In this document: positions 25,739 to 32,087 of the stretch, one piece after another
How positions within the stretch are numbered: position 1 is the first letter of the stretch
Layout: each line of letters opens with the position of its first letter
NCBI RefSeq assembly: GCF_016859125.1
Contig: NZ_CP069338.1
Span: 992,001 to 1,056,000 of the forward strand
Origin: Archangium violaceum
GTDB lineage: Bacteria; Myxococcota; Myxococcia; Myxococcales; Myxococcaceae
DNA length: 64,000 nucleotides
Direction of reading: 5' to 3'
Notes under the pieces: generated by a model
The model's input: the letters and a program-made list of their open reading frames with translations, nothing else
What the model was told of the DNA's origin: nothing
Database searches by the model: none
Position numbers and translations under genes: made by a program

Positions 25739-26890
25739 ATGGAAGCCCCGGCCCGACAGACCCTCACCCCGGCCCTCTCCCCGGGGGAGAGGGAGTGGCT
25801 GTCCGCGGAGGCCCGGGGGCAGCGCATCACCCTGCTCGATGGCGGCGCCGAGGCCTACCCGCGCATGCTGGAGGCCATCGGCACGGCCACCCGGCGCGTC
25901 CACCTGGAGGTCTACGCCTTCGAGCGAGAGGGCGTGGGCACGCGCTTCGTCGCCGCGCTCACCGCCGCGGCCCTGCGGGGCGTGGAAGTGAAGGTCATCG
26001 TCGACGGCTGGGGCTCCATCGGCGAGAGCCGCGCGCTGGCGGGCACCCTGCGCGCGGCCGGCATCAAGGTCCGCATCCACAATCCCCTCACCTCCCTCTT
26101 CCTCGGCCGCTTCTGGCGCAACCACCGCAAGATCCTCCTGGTGGATGACGCGGTGGCCTTCCTCGGGGGCATCAACATCGGGGACCACTACGCCGCCGAG
26201 GAGGGACGGCCGGGGTGGGCGGACCTGGCGCTGGAGCTGCGGGGCGACATCTGCGCGAAGCTGGGCGCGAAGCTCACCGCCGGAGCCTCCACGTTGGTGG
26301 CGGGCCCGGTGAGCATCCTCCTGTCCGGCGTCGGGGGTGGGCGGCGCCTGCGGGCGCGCTACCTGGCGGGCCTCAAGGACGCGCGGCGCAGGGTGGTGCT
26401 GGCCCACGCCTACTTCCTGCCGGACACGGGCTTCGTGCGGGCCCTCCGGCGCGCGGCACGGCGCGGGGTTGAGGTGCACCTGCTGCTGGCCGGCCGCAGC
26501 GACGTCCCCTTCGCCCGCGCGGCCACCATGCGCCTGTACCGCACCCTGCTGCGCGCGGGCGTGCACATCCACGAGTGGACGGCCACCACCCTGCACGCCA
26601 AGGCGGCGGTGGTGGATGGGGAGCGCCTGCTGGTGGGCAGCTTCAACCTGGATCCGCTCTCCCTGGTGAACCTGGAGACGCTGGTGGAGGTGGAGGACGC
26701 GGCCGTGGCCGCCCAGGCCACCCGCTGGATGGAGCGGCACGTGAGCGGCGCTCGTCCGGTGGGCCTGGAGGACTGCGCGCGCTCGGGCCCGCAGCGCTGG
26801 TTGCTGGACGTGGTGGGGCTCGCGGTGGCGCGCCTCTCCGAGCGCATCGCCAGCTTCATCGGCTCCCGGAGGATGCGCCGCCGGGGATGA
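25739..26890 (+). CDS. Phospholipase D-superfamily protein (cardiolipin synthase-like)
   Basis: 383 residues from the ATG at 25739. Two HKD motifs are seen: NHRKILLVDDAVAFLGGIN with GDHYA after it, and LHAKAAVVDGERLLVGSFN. The first has His-Arg-Lys spacing but keeps the His and Lys; both sites look active. The arrangement fits cardiolipin synthases or related phosphatidyl transferases acting at the membrane, although no N-terminal membrane helices are present (ClsB-like). The first 18 residues include TLTPALSPGEREW, a translated copy of the GC-rich repeat, so the true functional start may be near LSAEARGQRITLL. The 3' end overlaps the convergent response-regulator gene by 35 bases. Confidence 0.85.
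   Translation: MEAPARQTLTPALSPGEREWLSAEARGQRITLLDGGAEAYPRMLEAIGTATRRVHLEVYAFEREGVGTRFVAALTAAALRGVEVKVIVDGWGSIGESRALAGTLRAAGIKVRIHNPLTSLFLGRFWRNHRKILLVDDAVAFLGGINIGDHYAAEEGRPGWADLALELRGDICAKLGAKLTAGASTLVAGPVSILLSGVGGGRRLRARYLAGLKDARRRVVLAHAYFLPDTGFVRALRRAARRGVEVHLLLAGRSDVPFARAATMRLYRTLLRAGVHIHEWTATTLHAKAAVVDGERLLVGSFNLDPLSLVNLETLVEVEDAAVAAQATRWMERHVSGARPVGLEDCARSGPQRWLLDVVGLAVARLSERIASFIGSRRMRRRG
25761..25793 (-). repeat. REP-like GC-rich repeat, copy 2, inside the phospholipase gene start
   Basis: CCCTCACCCCGGCCCTCTCC followed by ccgggggagaggg forms a stem at 25773-25793. It is nearly identical to the reverse complement of 24249-24281. The two inverted copies enclose the kinase and small lipoprotein genes. 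Confidence 0.75.
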
Positions 26891-27230
26891 CCCGGGCCAC
26901 CGCGTTCAGGAGCTGCTCGAGCCGGAAGGGCTTCTTCAGGAAGGCCTGCCAGAGGCGCGGCTCTCCGGAGCGGGGCGGCATCTCGCTCATCAGGATGACG
27001 GGCACCCCGTCCAGGCCGGGCGTCTTCCGTATCTGCTCGAGCGCCTGCGCCCCGGAGAGGATGGGCATCATCACGTCCATGACGACGACGTCGGGGCGGT
27101 GCTCGCGCAAGCGCTCCAGCGCATCCCGTCCGTTGCCACAGACGGAGACCTCGTACCCCTCGTCCCGCAGCACGTCCGCCACGACCTGCTGCACGTCGAA
27201 CTCGTCCTCGACGACCAGAATGGAGGTCAC
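26856..27230 (-). CDS. Single-domain response regulator
   Basis: 124 residues from the ATG at 27230; the start overlaps the KaiC-like stop by four bases (ATGA). It is only a receiver: MTSILVVEDEFDV has the acidic pair, Asp52 in VVVMDVMMP is the phospho-acceptor, Ser82 in ILMSEMP and Lys100 in FLKKPF complete the site. There is no output domain. As the last gene of a kinase-KaiC-receiver operon it is presumably phosphorylated by the kinase at 28749-29828 and may act on or report from the KaiC-like ATPase. Confidence 0.93.
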   Translation of the reverse strand: MTSILVVEDEFDVQQVVADVLRDEGYEVSVCGNGRDALERLREHRPDVVVMDVMMPILSGAQALEQIRKTPGLDGVPVILMSEMPPRSGEPRLWQAFLKKPFRLEQLLNAVARVIPGGASSGSR

Positions 27231-28756
27231 CGCCCACCCCCGCCGCCCCGGCCCTTGCCCCCGGTACGCCTCACCTTCTTCAGCGCCTTCCCGAGCGGCC
27301 CCGGCGCCTTCCCACCGCGCACCCTCGCCTGACCGCTGAGGATGGACTCCGCGCTCTCGAAGGAGTCGGCCACGTCGATGCCCTCGCGGGAGATACGGAA
27401 CTCGCGCAGCGAGGTGTCATAGCGGCTCTCCCGCATCTTCATGATGGAGAGCAGCCGGTAGAGCTGGGAGCGCAGCTCCAGGTAGCGCAGCAGGATGACC
27501 GTCTCCACCACGTTGGCCAGCTCGGGCGTGGGCAGCTCGAGCTGGGACTGGAAGAGCTCCAGCTCGTCGGTGATGACGGTGGTGACGTCCAGCGAGCGCA
27601 GCTGGTTGGTGAGCGCCGAGAGGAAGCGGGGAATGCGATCCGGGTACACCGCCGCCGCGCGGAAGCCCTTGGCCCCGTCGATGAACAGGCGCCGGCGCTC
27701 CTTCTGCTCCTGGGACTTCAGCCCCTCCAGCAACTGCTCCGCCAGCGAGTCCATGAAGTGCTCCAGCGGCGGCTGCCAGATGAGCTCGATGCTTCCGTCC
27801 TTCACGTACCGCTCCAGGGGGATGCCCACGTCCTCCGCCTTCTCGATGAGGCGGGGGGGCGGCTCGTAGAACCCGAAGTAGGTGCCGTGCTGGCCCCGCC
27901 GGGCCCCCTCCACCAGGAAGGAGAGCCCCAGCAGCGTCTTGCCCGTGCCCGGAGAGCCCAGCAGCGCCGTGGTGGAGCCCGAGGGCAGTCCCCCGTCGAG
28001 CATCTCGTCCAACCGCGGGAGGCCGAAGCCCATGCGGACGCGCTGCTCACGTGCGTTCTCCGGCGGCTTGCTGAATTGAACCTCCGTGCGCGGGTGGATG
28101 ACCATGCCCTCGCCAGTGATCTCCACCTCGTGGCGGCCCCGGAGGTAATCGCCGCCGCGGAACTTGTGCACCGTCAGCTCGCGCACCGCCCGCGGACCGA
28201 TGAGCTTGTCGGACAGCTCGATGACGCCGTCCACCAGGGCGTTCTCCACGTGCGAGCGCTCGCGCATGTTGGAGATGAGCAGCGTGGTGCAGCCCAGGAT
28301 GCTGGCGAGCGCCTGGAGCGAGTGCACGAACTCCCGGTAGGACTGGGGACTGGTGGCGAACTGCTCCACGCTCTCCATGCCGTCCATGACGAAGAGCGTG
28401 GCCTTGCGCTCGCGCAGGGTGCGGCGGATGAGCTCCAGCAACCCGCTGAAGCCCTCGTCACGCACCATCTGGTAACCACTGACGTAGTAGAGCCGGTCGG
28501 GGATGTACTCCGGCTTGAAGAAGTTCAGGCTGGAGAGGTGCCCCACCATCTTCGCGTGCGATTCGATGAGCAGCGTCATGTAGACGCACCGCCCGCCGCT
28601 CCGCGCGATGTGGTTGCAGCACAGCTGGTTGGCGAAGATGGTCTTTCCGCCGCCCGGCGGCCCCATCAGCGCATAGGTGCCGCCCTGCTTGAGACCGCCC
28701 TGGAGGATGAAGTCCAGGCGTGGAATGCCGCTCTGGACGCGCCCCTCGCTACTCAT
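27227..28756 (-). CDS. KaiC-like double-domain RecA-superfamily ATPase
   Basis: 509 residues from the ATG at 28756, which overlaps the histidine-kinase stop by 8 bases. Two KaiC domains: Walker A GPPGGGKT at 32-39 and GSPGTGKT at 267-274; Walker B LFVMD at 121-125 and RLFID at 356-360. The second domain ends ILLRYLELRSQLYRLLSIMK-MRESRYD, matching KaiC. The residues aligning with cyanobacterial phosphosites Ser431/Thr432 appear to be Ala414/Asn415, so clock-type autophosphorylation is unlikely. A basic, Gly-rich tail (KKVRRTGGKGRGGGGGR) is added. Non-cyanobacterial KaiC homologues are thought to be ATP-driven signalling switches. Confidence 0.92.
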   Translation of the reverse strand: MSSEGRVQSGIPRLDFILQGGLKQGGTYALMGPPGGGKTIFANQLCCNHIARSGGRCVYMTLLIESHAKMVGHLSSLNFFKPEYIPDRLYYVSGYQMVRDEGFSGLLELIRRTLRERKATLFVMDGMESVEQFATSPQSYREFVHSLQALASILGCTTLLISNMRERSHVENALVDGVIELSDKLIGPRAVRELTVHKFRGGDYLRGRHEVEITGEGMVIHPRTEVQFSKPPENAREQRVRMGFGLPRLDEMLDGGLPSGSTTALLGSPGTGKTLLGLSFLVEGARRGQHGTYFGFYEPPPRLIEKAEDVGIPLERYVKDGSIELIWQPPLEHFMDSLAEQLLEGLKSQEQKERRRLFIDGAKGFRAAAVYPDRIPRFLSALTNQLRSLDVTTVITDELELFQSQLELPTPELANVVETVILLRYLELRSQLYRLLSIMKMRESRYDTSLREFRISREGIDVADSFESAESILSGQARVRGGKAPGPLGKALKKVRRTGGKGRGGGGGR

Positions 28757-29828
28757 TCTCCCCCTCCGTGACCTCCAGGGGCAGACGCAACGTGAAACAG
28801 GAACCGCCGCCGTCCCGCCCCATGACTCCCACCGAGCCCCCATGGGCCCGGGCAATCTCCCGGACGATGTACAGGCCGAGCCCCAGGCTCTCCACCCGAT
28901 GACCGGACGCGGCGCGCTCGAACGGGTTGAAGATGCACTCGCGGTCGCCCTCCGGTACGCCGATGCCCCGGTCCTCCACCCGGAGGGACACCACACCGTC
29001 GCGCGCCTCGGCCCGGACCGTGATGGGCCCACCGGCGCCGTATTTGATGGCGTTGGTGATGAGGTTGCTGAGCGCCTGCTCCACCCGCAGCCGGTCCCAG
29101 TGGACCTCCACCTGGGGACAGTCCTCCACCGTCAGCACCGAACCCACCTGGCGGGCCTGCTCGACGAAGCGCTCGCCCACCTCGCGCACCAGGCCACCGA
29201 GCTCGAAGCGCTCACGGTCCAGCACGAAGCGGTTGTTGCGGGCCCGGCTCACGTCGAGCAGGTTCTGCACCAGCACGCCCAGCCGGCGCACCTGTCGCAG
29301 GGCGGGCTCCAGCCGCTCGGCCAGCAGGGAGCCGGCGAGGCTCGCCTCGCGCTGGGCCCCCCGCTGCAACCGCTCCAGGACGAGCTGCAGCACGGTGATG
29401 GGGGACTTGAGCTCGTGCGAGGCAACGGACAGGAAGGTGTCGCGAGCCCCGAGCGCCCGCAGCAGGTCCGCCTCCGCGCGCAACCACTGCGTCACGTCCT
29501 GGAAGGTCATCGTCACCACGCCCGGCGAGCGGGTCCGGTCCGGACGGGCGTGCACCACGAAGGTCCGGACTCCCTCGGGCCGCGCCCAGCGGAACAGCAC
29601 GCCCTCCAGGGGCTCGCCACGCGCGGCCCGCTTCACCGGATGCTGCTCGGGAGGGAGCGGAGTGCCCTCCGGCTCCACGAGGGTGCCACGGCCGGAGACC
29701 TCGAGGATGAAGGGGAACTGCCGTGCCGCCGCGTTGGCGAACAGCACCCGCGCGGTCCCCTCTTCGACACGCAGTGTGGGCACGGCGAGGAAGTCGAGGA
29801 CCCTCTCCAGCCCTGGCTGCTCGGACAC
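28749..29828 (-). CDS. Cytosolic PAS-type sensor histidine kinase
   Basis: 359 residues from a GTG at 29828 (VSEQPGLERVLDF), chosen for the GGGAGAAGG directly upstream; an ATG at 29891 and a GTG at 29906 are alternatives without a ribosome site. A PAS-like sensory part (to about 115) is followed by HisKA with TFLSVASHELKSPITVLQ, and HATPase with NLITNAIKYGAGG, VEDRGIGVPEGD and LGLGLYIVREIA. No membrane helix. First gene of the coupled operon with the KaiC-like ATPase and receiver. The phosphotransfer partner is presumably the response regulator at the operon's end. Confidence 0.9.
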   Translation of the reverse strand: MSEQPGLERVLDFLAVPTLRVEEGTARVLFANAAARQFPFILEVSGRGTLVEPEGTPLPPEQHPVKRAARGEPLEGVLFRWARPEGVRTFVVHARPDRTRSPGVVTMTFQDVTQWLRAEADLLRALGARDTFLSVASHELKSPITVLQLVLERLQRGAQREASLAGSLLAERLEPALRQVRRLGVLVQNLLDVSRARNNRFVLDRERFELGGLVREVGERFVEQARQVGSVLTVEDCPQVEVHWDRLRVEQALSNLITNAIKYGAGGPITVRAEARDGVVSLRVEDRGIGVPEGDRECIFNPFERAASGHRVESLGLGLYIVREIARAHGGSVGVMGRDGGGSCFTLRLPLEVTEGENE

Positions 29829-30056
29829 GCCCTTCTCCCTTTCCACCCGTGCAGCACGAACGGATGGGGCCCGCGGCACCCGATGTCGCATGGTGATCGC
29901 AGTCACCCAAGATGGGCCGCGGGGTCAAGGACGGCAACCACGGGGTGGAAGTCGAGCCGCCCCGGAGCGTCGCCTGTCGAACGGTCCGCTCCCTTCGCAC
30001 GCGTCCACGGGTCCGGAGAGGTTCTGCTACAGTGACCCACTTCGGAGGTCATGCAC

Positions 30057-32087
30057 ATGAGCGGCGCCATGGAGGGACGGGCGGAGCGGGAGGGACGGAA
30101 GGCACCGGGACGAATCCCGAGGAGACGTGTCCCGCGCGAGCGCCTGGACATGCCATCACCCCCGCTCGGCACCCGGGTGGGCGGCTACCGGCTGGAGGCA
30201 CGGCTGGGAGAGGGGGGCCAGGGCACAGTGTACCGGGCCCGGCGCGGCGGCCGGCTGTACGCCCTCAAGTTCCTCGCCCTGGAGTCACCCGATTGGGCGT
30301 GGCGGGAGTTGGAGGTGCGGCTGCGGCTGCGGCACGTGGGTGAGCTGGCCGTGGAAGGCCACGGACTGTGGCCGCACCAGGGCCCGCGCTTCCTCTACCT
30401 CGTCACCCCCTACGTGCGAGGGCGCCCGCTGTACGCGTGGGCGAAGGAGAAGAATCCCACGGCGCGGCAGGTGGTGCGCCTGGTGCTGGAGGTGGCGAGG
30501 CAGTTGGTGGAGGTGCACCGGGCCGGAGTGGTGCACCGGGACATCAAGGGCCCCAACGTACTGGTGTGGCGCGAGGACGGGCGTCCGGTGCTGGTGGACT
30601 TCGGCGTGGGCACGTACGTGGGGGCGCCCGAGATCACCAACCCCCTGGGACTGCCGGGCACGCGCCACTACCGAAGCCCCGAGGCGCTGCGCTTCCGGCG
30701 CGAGCACGCGGGCGAACACTCCCCGGCACGAACCTCGGACGACCTGTGGGCGTTGGGAGTCGCCCTCTATTGGCTGCTGACGGGCGGCTACCCCTTCGAC
30801 ACGGAGGTGGGGGACGAGGGCGCGCTGGCGGACCTCATCCTGAAGCAGGAGCCCGAGCCGCCACACGCGTGCAACCCACGCGTGCCCCGGACGGTGAGCG
30901 AGCTGTGCCTGCGCATGTTGGAGAAGCGCCCCGAGGCGCGCTTTCCGGACGCGGAGGCCCTGTGCGAGGCGCTGGAGGAACTGCTGGAGGACGCGGACGG
31001 CACGTGGGACGTGCCGCTGTGCGAGGAGTGGGGCCCGGACGGTGCCACCACGCCCCAGGTGGAATGGCTCGGCCTGGGCGACTGGCTGGACAAGGCGCGG
31101 CGGCTGTTGGCGTACGCGAGGAGGCACCCCCGGCGAGGCCGGCCCGTGTCACTCGCGGACGCGACCACGCTACCGGGTCCGCCGGATGACCCGGCCCCAG
31201 GGAAGGACGACACCGGAGAGGAAGCGAGTCCTCATGGGCAACGGACACGGACGCCTCCGCGGCGCGCGAGCGTCTGGGGTAGCGCCTTGCTGGTGCTGGG
31301 ACTGCTCGGAGTCCTGGCCGTACTGCGCTTCCCACCCCACCCCGAGCCCGAGGTGCCAGCCACTACTCCTGAAGTAGTCTCCGCTCCTACCATATCGGAG
31401 GTCACGAACGCCGGTCAGGAAGTGGCGCCCCGGGGAGAGCCGCCGGAAGGTGGAGGAGGCGCGGCGCCCGAGAAGGCGGAAACCTCCGCGCCCGTCGCCA
31501 GCGCGACGCCCCCAGAGGACAGCACGCGCGTGAAGACTCCACGGCAGGGCTCCCAGCCTCAGAAGACGCAGCAAAAGAAGAAGCAGCGAACGGTGCTCGG
31601 CGAAGTGGCCAAGGTGTGCGGCACGGCCCTGGCCGTGAGTCAGGCCGCCTGCGCCAGCCCCGCTCCCCAGGTGCTGCCTACCCCTCCGGCCGCGGAGTGC
31701 CCACCCGGCGCGGTGCAGGCCATGAATACGCTGGGCCTCGAGTTCAACACGACCGGCTCTTTGCTCTTCTTTCCCTACGACAAGAATAGCGACAATCCCA
31801 GAATCACCCTCGTGCGCCAGGGTCCAGGCACGTTGCAATTGCTTGGAGACGTCTGGGAAAAACTTCCGGAAGATACAGTGTTCTCCGGGGAGCTCTTCTT
31901 CGGGAAGACGCATGTGTACGGCCGATTCACCACGGCCCACCCTCCCGGAGGACCCACTTATCCCGTCTGCATGGAGCTGTGGCAGTCGGAAGTGGTGAAA
32001 GGGGTCGAGAAGAAACCCGCCGACGAACGAGACTCCGCCAGGGTACGGACCGCCGTGTTCCTCAAGCCGGTGAAGCGCTTCGAGTAG
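30057..32087 (+). CDS. Transmembrane Ser/Thr protein kinase with unknown exported domain
   Basis: 676 residues from the ATG at 30057, with GGAGG eight bases upstream (another ATG lies at 30051). Kinase domain at about 37-300: GEGGQGTVYRARRGG, YALKFLALE, VVHRDIKGPNVLV, LVDFGVGTYVG, GTRHYRSPEAL, DDLWALGVALYWLL. A linker, then a membrane helix (VWGSALLVLGLLGVLAVL) near residue 410, a Pro/Ala/Lys-rich stalk and a C-terminal region of about 160 residues with Cys residues and LGLEFNTTGSLLFFPYDKNS, not recognised. The DUF2381 gene follows on the same strand after 101 bases, a pairing that appears common in myxobacteria. Confidence 0.88.
   Translation: MSGAMEGRAEREGRKAPGRIPRRRVPRERLDMPSPPLGTRVGGYRLEARLGEGGQGTVYRARRGGRLYALKFLALESPDWAWRELEVRLRLRHVGELAVEGHGLWPHQGPRFLYLVTPYVRGRPLYAWAKEKNPTARQVVRLVLEVARQLVEVHRAGVVHRDIKGPNVLVWREDGRPVLVDFGVGTYVGAPEITNPLGLPGTRHYRSPEALRFRREHAGEHSPARTSDDLWALGVALYWLLTGGYPFDTEVGDEGALADLILKQEPEPPHACNPRVPRTVSELCLRMLEKRPEARFPDAEALCEALEELLEDADGTWDVPLCEEWGPDGATTPQVEWLGLGDWLDKARRLLAYARRHPRRGRPVSLADATTLPGPPDDPAPGKDDTGEEASPHGQRTRTPPRRASVWGSALLVLGLLGVLAVLRFPPHPEPEVPATTPEVVSAPTISEVTNAGQEVAPRGEPPEGGGGAAPEKAETSAPVASATPPEDSTRVKTPRQGSQPQKTQQKKKQRTVLGEVAKVCGTALAVSQAACASPAPQVLPTPPAAECPPGAVQAMNTLGLEFNTTGSLLFFPYDKNSDNPRITLVRQGPGTLQLLGDVWEKLPEDTVFSGELFFGKTHVYGRFTTAHPPGGPTYPVCMELWQSEVVKGVEKKPADERDSARVRTAVFLKPVKRFE

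Follow-up and report, generated by a model that had tools for sequence, protein, structure and literature searches.

The KaiC-receiver gene pair in a three-gene operon of Archangium violaceum is probably a signalling switch and not a clock. The operon, which encodes a sensor histidine kinase (HK), a KaiC-like ATPase and a lone receiver (REC), lies in a window of 64,000 nucleotides (G000:C1:992001-1056000, ~69% GC) of the 12.68 Mb single-contig genome. The original prediction had called it a signalling switch rather than a clock, and this is the better-supported reading: the phosphosites of KaiC and its general base E318 (here Tyr) are lost, E77 is replaced by Ile, and no kaiB lies nearby. The motifs of the kinase, of the receiver and for nucleotide binding are intact, and the KaiC-receiver arrangement is deeply conserved. 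KaiC homologs are often annotated as "circadian clock protein", and the myxobacterial ones have been proposed to act as a timer. The receiver-KaiC pair could reveal the working of a KaiC ring that does not phosphorylate itself.

Organization of the operon

The three genes are located on the minus strand in the order HK, KaiC, REC (Table 1). Re-reading of the open reading frames and the junction sequences reproduced the predicted three-gene structure, the strands and the overlaps of 8 and 4 bases. The overlaps suggest translational coupling. A phospholipase-D-like gene converges on the receiver gene and overlaps its 3' end by 35 nt (26856-26890), and a Ser/Thr protein kinase gene diverges upstream of the operon.

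Table 1. Features of the HK-KaiC-REC operon and flanking genes (window coordinates).
Feature	Position	Strand	Details
Phospholipase-D-like gene	25739..26890	+	
Lone receiver	26856..27230	-	124 aa, no output domain; Response_reg
Receiver acceptor Asp52	codon 27075-27077	-	canonical acceptor position (alignment)
KaiC/REC overlap	27227..27230	-	4 nt GTGA; junction GGTGACC
KaiC-like double P-loop ATPase	27227..28756	-	509 aa, ATG; CI ~1-232, CII ~233-480
Ala414-Asn415 codons, place of KaiC Ser431-Thr432	27512..27517	-	phmmer, MAFFT
Tyr297-Glu298, place of CII catalytic pair E318-E319	27863..27868	-	alignment
Ile64-Glu65, place of CI catalytic pair E77-E78	28562..28567	-	alignment
HK/KaiC overlap	28749..28756	-	8 nt; overlap ATGAGTAG, junction AATGAGTAGC
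Sensor histidine kinase, predicted soluble	28749..29906	-	385 aa from GTG 29906; motifs, no hydrophobic segment
HK phosphoacceptor His164 in HisKA	codon 29415-29417	-	motif
Ser/Thr protein kinase gene	30051..32087	+	

Pfam searches recognized HisKA and HATPase_c domains in the first protein, two KaiC domains in the second and a Response_reg domain in the third. The kinase carries the H box and the N/G boxes of a two-component kinase besides HATPase_c; its start is uncertain between GTG 29906, ATG 29891 and GTG 29828, the last being the start originally assumed. Its N-terminal region (residues ~40-137) was not recognized by Pfam even at E = 1 and is predicted to be a PAS-like domain, an assignment that comes from the AlphaFold2 model and a structure search in which PAS/LOV histidine kinases are among the best PDB matches. 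The receiver has the residues of a two-component receiver, namely the acidic pair E8/D9, the acceptor Asp52, Ser82 and Lys100. Of 92 receivers compared, 90 retain Asp52, and the acidic pair, Ser82 and Lys100 are nearly invariant.

Phosphosites and catalytic glutamates of the KaiC-like protein

The KaiC-like protein has kept both Walker A sites, as predicted (GPPGGGKT at residues 32-39 and GSPGTGKT at residues 267-274). For its AlphaFold2 model (pLDDT 88.1, pTM 0.83, alignment of 50 sequences), all 50 PDB matches listed are KaiC, with TM-scores of ~0.70-0.81. The C-terminal tail after residue ~480 is basic and predicted to be disordered. With the NCBIfam equivalog circ_KaiC the protein scores 142.8 bits, far below the cut-off of 546.25.

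The residues Ala414/Asn415 had been placed at the positions of Ser431/Thr432 of cyanobacterial KaiC. In a phmmer alignment to KaiC crystal sequences, A414 falls on S431, N415 on T432 and P409 on T426, with no gap in this region, and a MAFFT alignment with orthologs and S. elongatus KaiC (the sequence of which was taken from the phmmer alignment) gives the same placement at 431/432. No Ser or Thr is thus found at the phosphosites, and since both methods concur, an alternative alignment restoring them was rejected. Nor does the phosphosite loop contain a conserved hydroxyl, Thr410 being Asn, Gln, His or another residue in relatives.

The same positions were compared among 85 non-redundant KaiC relatives (98% cut, the A. 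violaceum protein itself included). In the 44 relatives with at least 54% identity the phosphosite pair is AN (13), AS (13), AA (9), AH (3) or another combination (6); 42 of these 44 have Ala or Gly at position 431, and position 432 is mostly Asn, Ser, Ala or His. The 41 more distant paralogs have EA, SA, SM, SS and so on. As judged from these counts, Asn415 is a local feature common only to close relatives and loss of S431 marks the clade.

In KaiC, E318 activates T432/S431 and is the general base of the kinase, so that E318A is without phosphoryl transfer; E77 has been proposed as the water activator in CI, and E78 and E319 coordinate Mg (PMC2777353). In the A. violaceum protein the first glutamate of each pair is replaced, by Tyr297 in CII and by Ile64 in CI. 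Neither the E77 position (0/85) nor the E318 position (0/85) is ever Glu among the non-redundant relatives, and the E78 equivalent is Glu in 85/85 and the E319 equivalent Glu or Asp in 85/85. The equivalents of K52, K294, K224/R226 and K457/R459 are kept as well. Six paralogs that have Ser/Thr at both phosphosites also miss the first glutamate in both rings. Because this glutamate is absent from both rings of all members, autophosphorylation by the known KaiC mechanism appears very unlikely for the whole 85-member family and not for this protein alone.

The original prediction also had the KaiC-like protein hydrolyse ATP. RecA-type ATPases use one glutamate. Each ring retains Walker A, Walker B and one glutamate, which makes hydrolysis plausible by analogy with these enzymes, although E77, the proposed water activator of CI, is missing. 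An alignment with RecA and RadA of the same genome, in which the E78/E319 equivalent was compared with the catalytic glutamate of RecA, was ambiguous by one residue.

Conservation of the KaiC-receiver pair

Related loci were sampled by KaiC similarity alone. In 83 of the 85 non-redundant loci, all except L078 and L104, the next gene downstream of KaiC on the same strand encodes a receiver, and the two genes mostly overlap by 4 nt as in A. violaceum. The pair was found in several phyla, including in myxobacteria, Ramlibacter, Burkholderia, Planctomycetota and others. With up to ~280 receiver candidates in the A. violaceum genome, and taking ~10,000 genes, chance adjacency of KaiC and a receiver is roughly estimated at a few per cent. 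Distances between KaiC proteins and between receivers are correlated (Spearman rho 0.53; 0.31 for distant pairs; neither corrected for species phylogeny); none of 1000 permutations of the full set reached 0.53, the maximum being 0.20. For 71 of 79 receivers, the nearest relative is the partner of a KaiC from the same clade.

The kinase gene is immediately upstream in 36 of the 44 close relatives and in 41 of the 85 loci overall; it is absent upstream in 44/85, including those of a sister genus (L020-L023). Its sensor part also varies: it is PAS-like in this genus according to the model, the three examined loci of the Corallococcus-Hyalangium-Pyxidicoccus type have a receiver there, and that of a Ramlibacter relative is unassigned. 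The conserved core is the KaiC-receiver pair, and the upstream kinase is optional and has had its sensor part exchanged. These observations bear on two earlier claims. In place of a KaiC bracketed symmetrically by a kinase and a receiver, the conserved unit is the pair, to which exchangeable kinases are added. The claim that the products are made in fixed proportion is not supported, as overlaps point to coupled translation and not to stoichiometry and the kinase gene is so often missing. No further gene around the operon is conserved across genera, and a shared output gene was thus not found in its surroundings. Apparent natural HK-KaiC or KaiC-REC fusions, suggested by long open frames at several loci (L055 and L062 among them), turned out to be separate genes or frame artefacts.

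Horizontal movement is suggested because Sorangium, Ramlibacter and Planctomycetota MAGs, all outside the family of the host, have nearer relatives (64-68%) than Corallococcus (~59%); the branches, however, are weakly supported (0.25 to 0.79), and contamination of MAG bins is possible. A Bdellovibrionales MAG contains two tandem KaiC-REC pairs (L084:3100-6700). One KaiC-REC paralog group (L013, L049, L052, L058, L061) repeatedly adjoins acyl-CoA-ligase-like and oligoribonuclease-like genes, named by eye from sequence.

Related KaiC systems, proposed mechanism and alternatives

The following comparison draws on parts of PMC11832031, of De Luca et al. 2011 (PMC3164672) and of Galperin et al. 2018 (PMC5847659). 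The A. violaceum KaiC shares with the cyanobacterial clock KaiC, which works with KaiA, KaiB and SasA, two KaiC domains, the fold and both Walker A sites; it differs in lacking the phosphosites, E77, E318 and a kaiB partner, and the kinase is without a KaiB-like domain. The genome's only KaiB domain (G000:C1:6600282-6600515) is far from the operon; it is fused to a receiver and stands beside a different KaiC.

In the Ramlibacter genome paper, bacterial kaiC contexts were sorted into groups, of which the third ("black") contains kaiC genes that often precede a lone receiver gene or are near HK or GGDEF-EAL genes, with one or no phosphosite conserved (PMC3164672). The A. violaceum operon resembles this group in both the lone receiver gene after kaiC and the poorly conserved phosphosites. 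However, the third group is described in that part of the paper as diverse and less conserved in arrangement, whereas the KaiC-REC pair is nearly invariant in the family sampled here, and the loss of E77/E318, a feature of this family, goes without mention there. In our KaiC tree, from which the reference sequences of De Luca et al. are absent, the A. violaceum protein groups with relatives from Ramlibacter and Sorangium and apart from S. elongatus KaiC. In myxobacteria, which have several kaiC copies per genome, Graniczkowska et al. (2024; PMC11832031) counted 50 KaiCs without any phosphosite, expressed and of unstudied function. They favour a clock-like role tied to bacteriophytochrome, and neither the HK-KaiC-REC operon nor the catalytic glutamates are described in the part of their paper used here. 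Archaeal KaiC-REC fusions are reported in PMC5847659 together with the proposal of Makarova et al. 2017 that archaeal KaiC-like ATPases are signal transduction hubs. In both, a KaiC-family ATPase is connected to two-component parts, in the archaeal case also by a fused REC; the A. violaceum system differs in being bacterial, with a two-domain KaiC and separate genes. KaiC-receiver systems with lost phosphosites are therefore an already known, experimentally uncharacterised kind to which this operon adds a member; what is new here, as seen in the alignments and gene neighbourhoods, is that the first catalytic glutamates are lost in all relatives and that the pair is nearly invariant. Loss of the first catalytic glutamate in both rings, together with loss of the phosphosite and an attached receiver gene, provides a clear sequence criterion for telling signalling from clock KaiCs.

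The mechanism that we favour, with moderate confidence, is a two-component-gated, kinase-dead KaiC ring, with the signal running from the kinase through receiver Asp52 to the ring. The PAS-type kinase, predicted to be soluble, would sense a cytosolic signal and autophosphorylate His164, from which the phosphate would pass to Asp52. In one of its phosphorylation states the receiver would bind the KaiC double-ring hexamer and alter its nucleotide state or assembly, and the ring would then release or recruit a putative effector. Reversible phosphorylation of the receiver would thus substitute, in the KaiC-REC family, for KaiC's own phosphorylation at Ser431/Thr432. We infer hexamer formation, KaiC-receiver contact and phosphotransfer, as well as the direction from receiver to KaiC, the latter because the kinase is exchangeable and the receiver is not. 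As about half of the sampled loci are without an adjacent kinase, the partner kinase would be encoded elsewhere there, or the receiver used differently. A broader proposal, made tentatively, is that the KaiC rings of a multi-phylum bacterial family are constitutively kinase-dead and that their reversible switch is no longer the phosphosites but a dedicated stand-alone receiver, fed by exchangeable kinases. If true, the KaiC machine would have been re-wired from self-timing to external gating.

Co-conservation gives no direction, and by analogy with its action on SasA, KaiC could act on the kinase. The ring would then be a sensor, for example of ATP/ADP, that modulates the kinase in a SasA-like manner, and the phosphorylated receiver would be the output on a distant target. 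Such reverse flow has a precedent in SasA, discussed in PMC3164672, and agrees with the adjacency of kinase and KaiC in most close relatives and with a receiver that, without an output domain, must work through protein contact. We regard it as the main rival but as rather unlikely, since the kinase is the dispensable part while nearly all loci keep the receiver, and since the N-terminal part of the kinase is PAS-like or a receiver instead of the KaiB-like domain used by SasA for KaiC binding.

The favoured receiver-gated ring has also to be weighed against a remnant or simplified hourglass or circadian timer, with a KaiC that autophosphorylates at other residues. Fruiting bodies of M. macrosporus form rhythmic ring-shaped patterns, from which a KaiC-based timer has been proposed (PMC11832031), and in some orthologs Ser occupies position 432. 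This explanation appears highly improbable given the Ala or Gly at 431, a loop without conserved Ser/Thr, the invariable absence of E318, the lack of kaiB alongside and the low circ_KaiC score; De Luca et al. likewise argue that KaiCs such as Rta_35460 are probably unable to sustain a cyclic timer (PMC3164672). No more credible is a RecA-like, DNA-acting ATPase under two-component control: the single-glutamate active sites resemble those of RecA-type ATPases and the tail is basic and predicted to be disordered, but the structural matches listed are all KaiC and the conserved region does not include the tail. Least probable of all are three unrelated chance neighbours in a compact operon, for although genes in bacterial operons often overlap by 4 nt, KaiC and receiver are linked in nearly every locus across several phyla.

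Two-component parts are attached to nearly every KaiC of the A. violaceum genome. At L009:3311-5475 (G000:C1 ~6598810-6600974), a receiver-KaiB fusion (PF00072 and PF07689) overlaps by 4 nt with a KaiC gene whose product keeps S431-T432 and both EE pairs and is the most clock-like KaiC of this genome. Seven further genomes of the order (G045, G047, G080, G083, G046, G043, G137) have near-full-length relatives of the fusion, and the literature search found no description of it; the fusion and its clock-like KaiC are possibly more interesting than the HK-KaiC-REC operon. A KaiC homolog with three KaiC domains is followed by a GAF-GAF histidine kinase at L010:3115-5328 (G000:C1 ~446614-448827), and at L012:1893-4471 a KaiC paralog has a 4-nt overlap with a receiver-histidine kinase gene.
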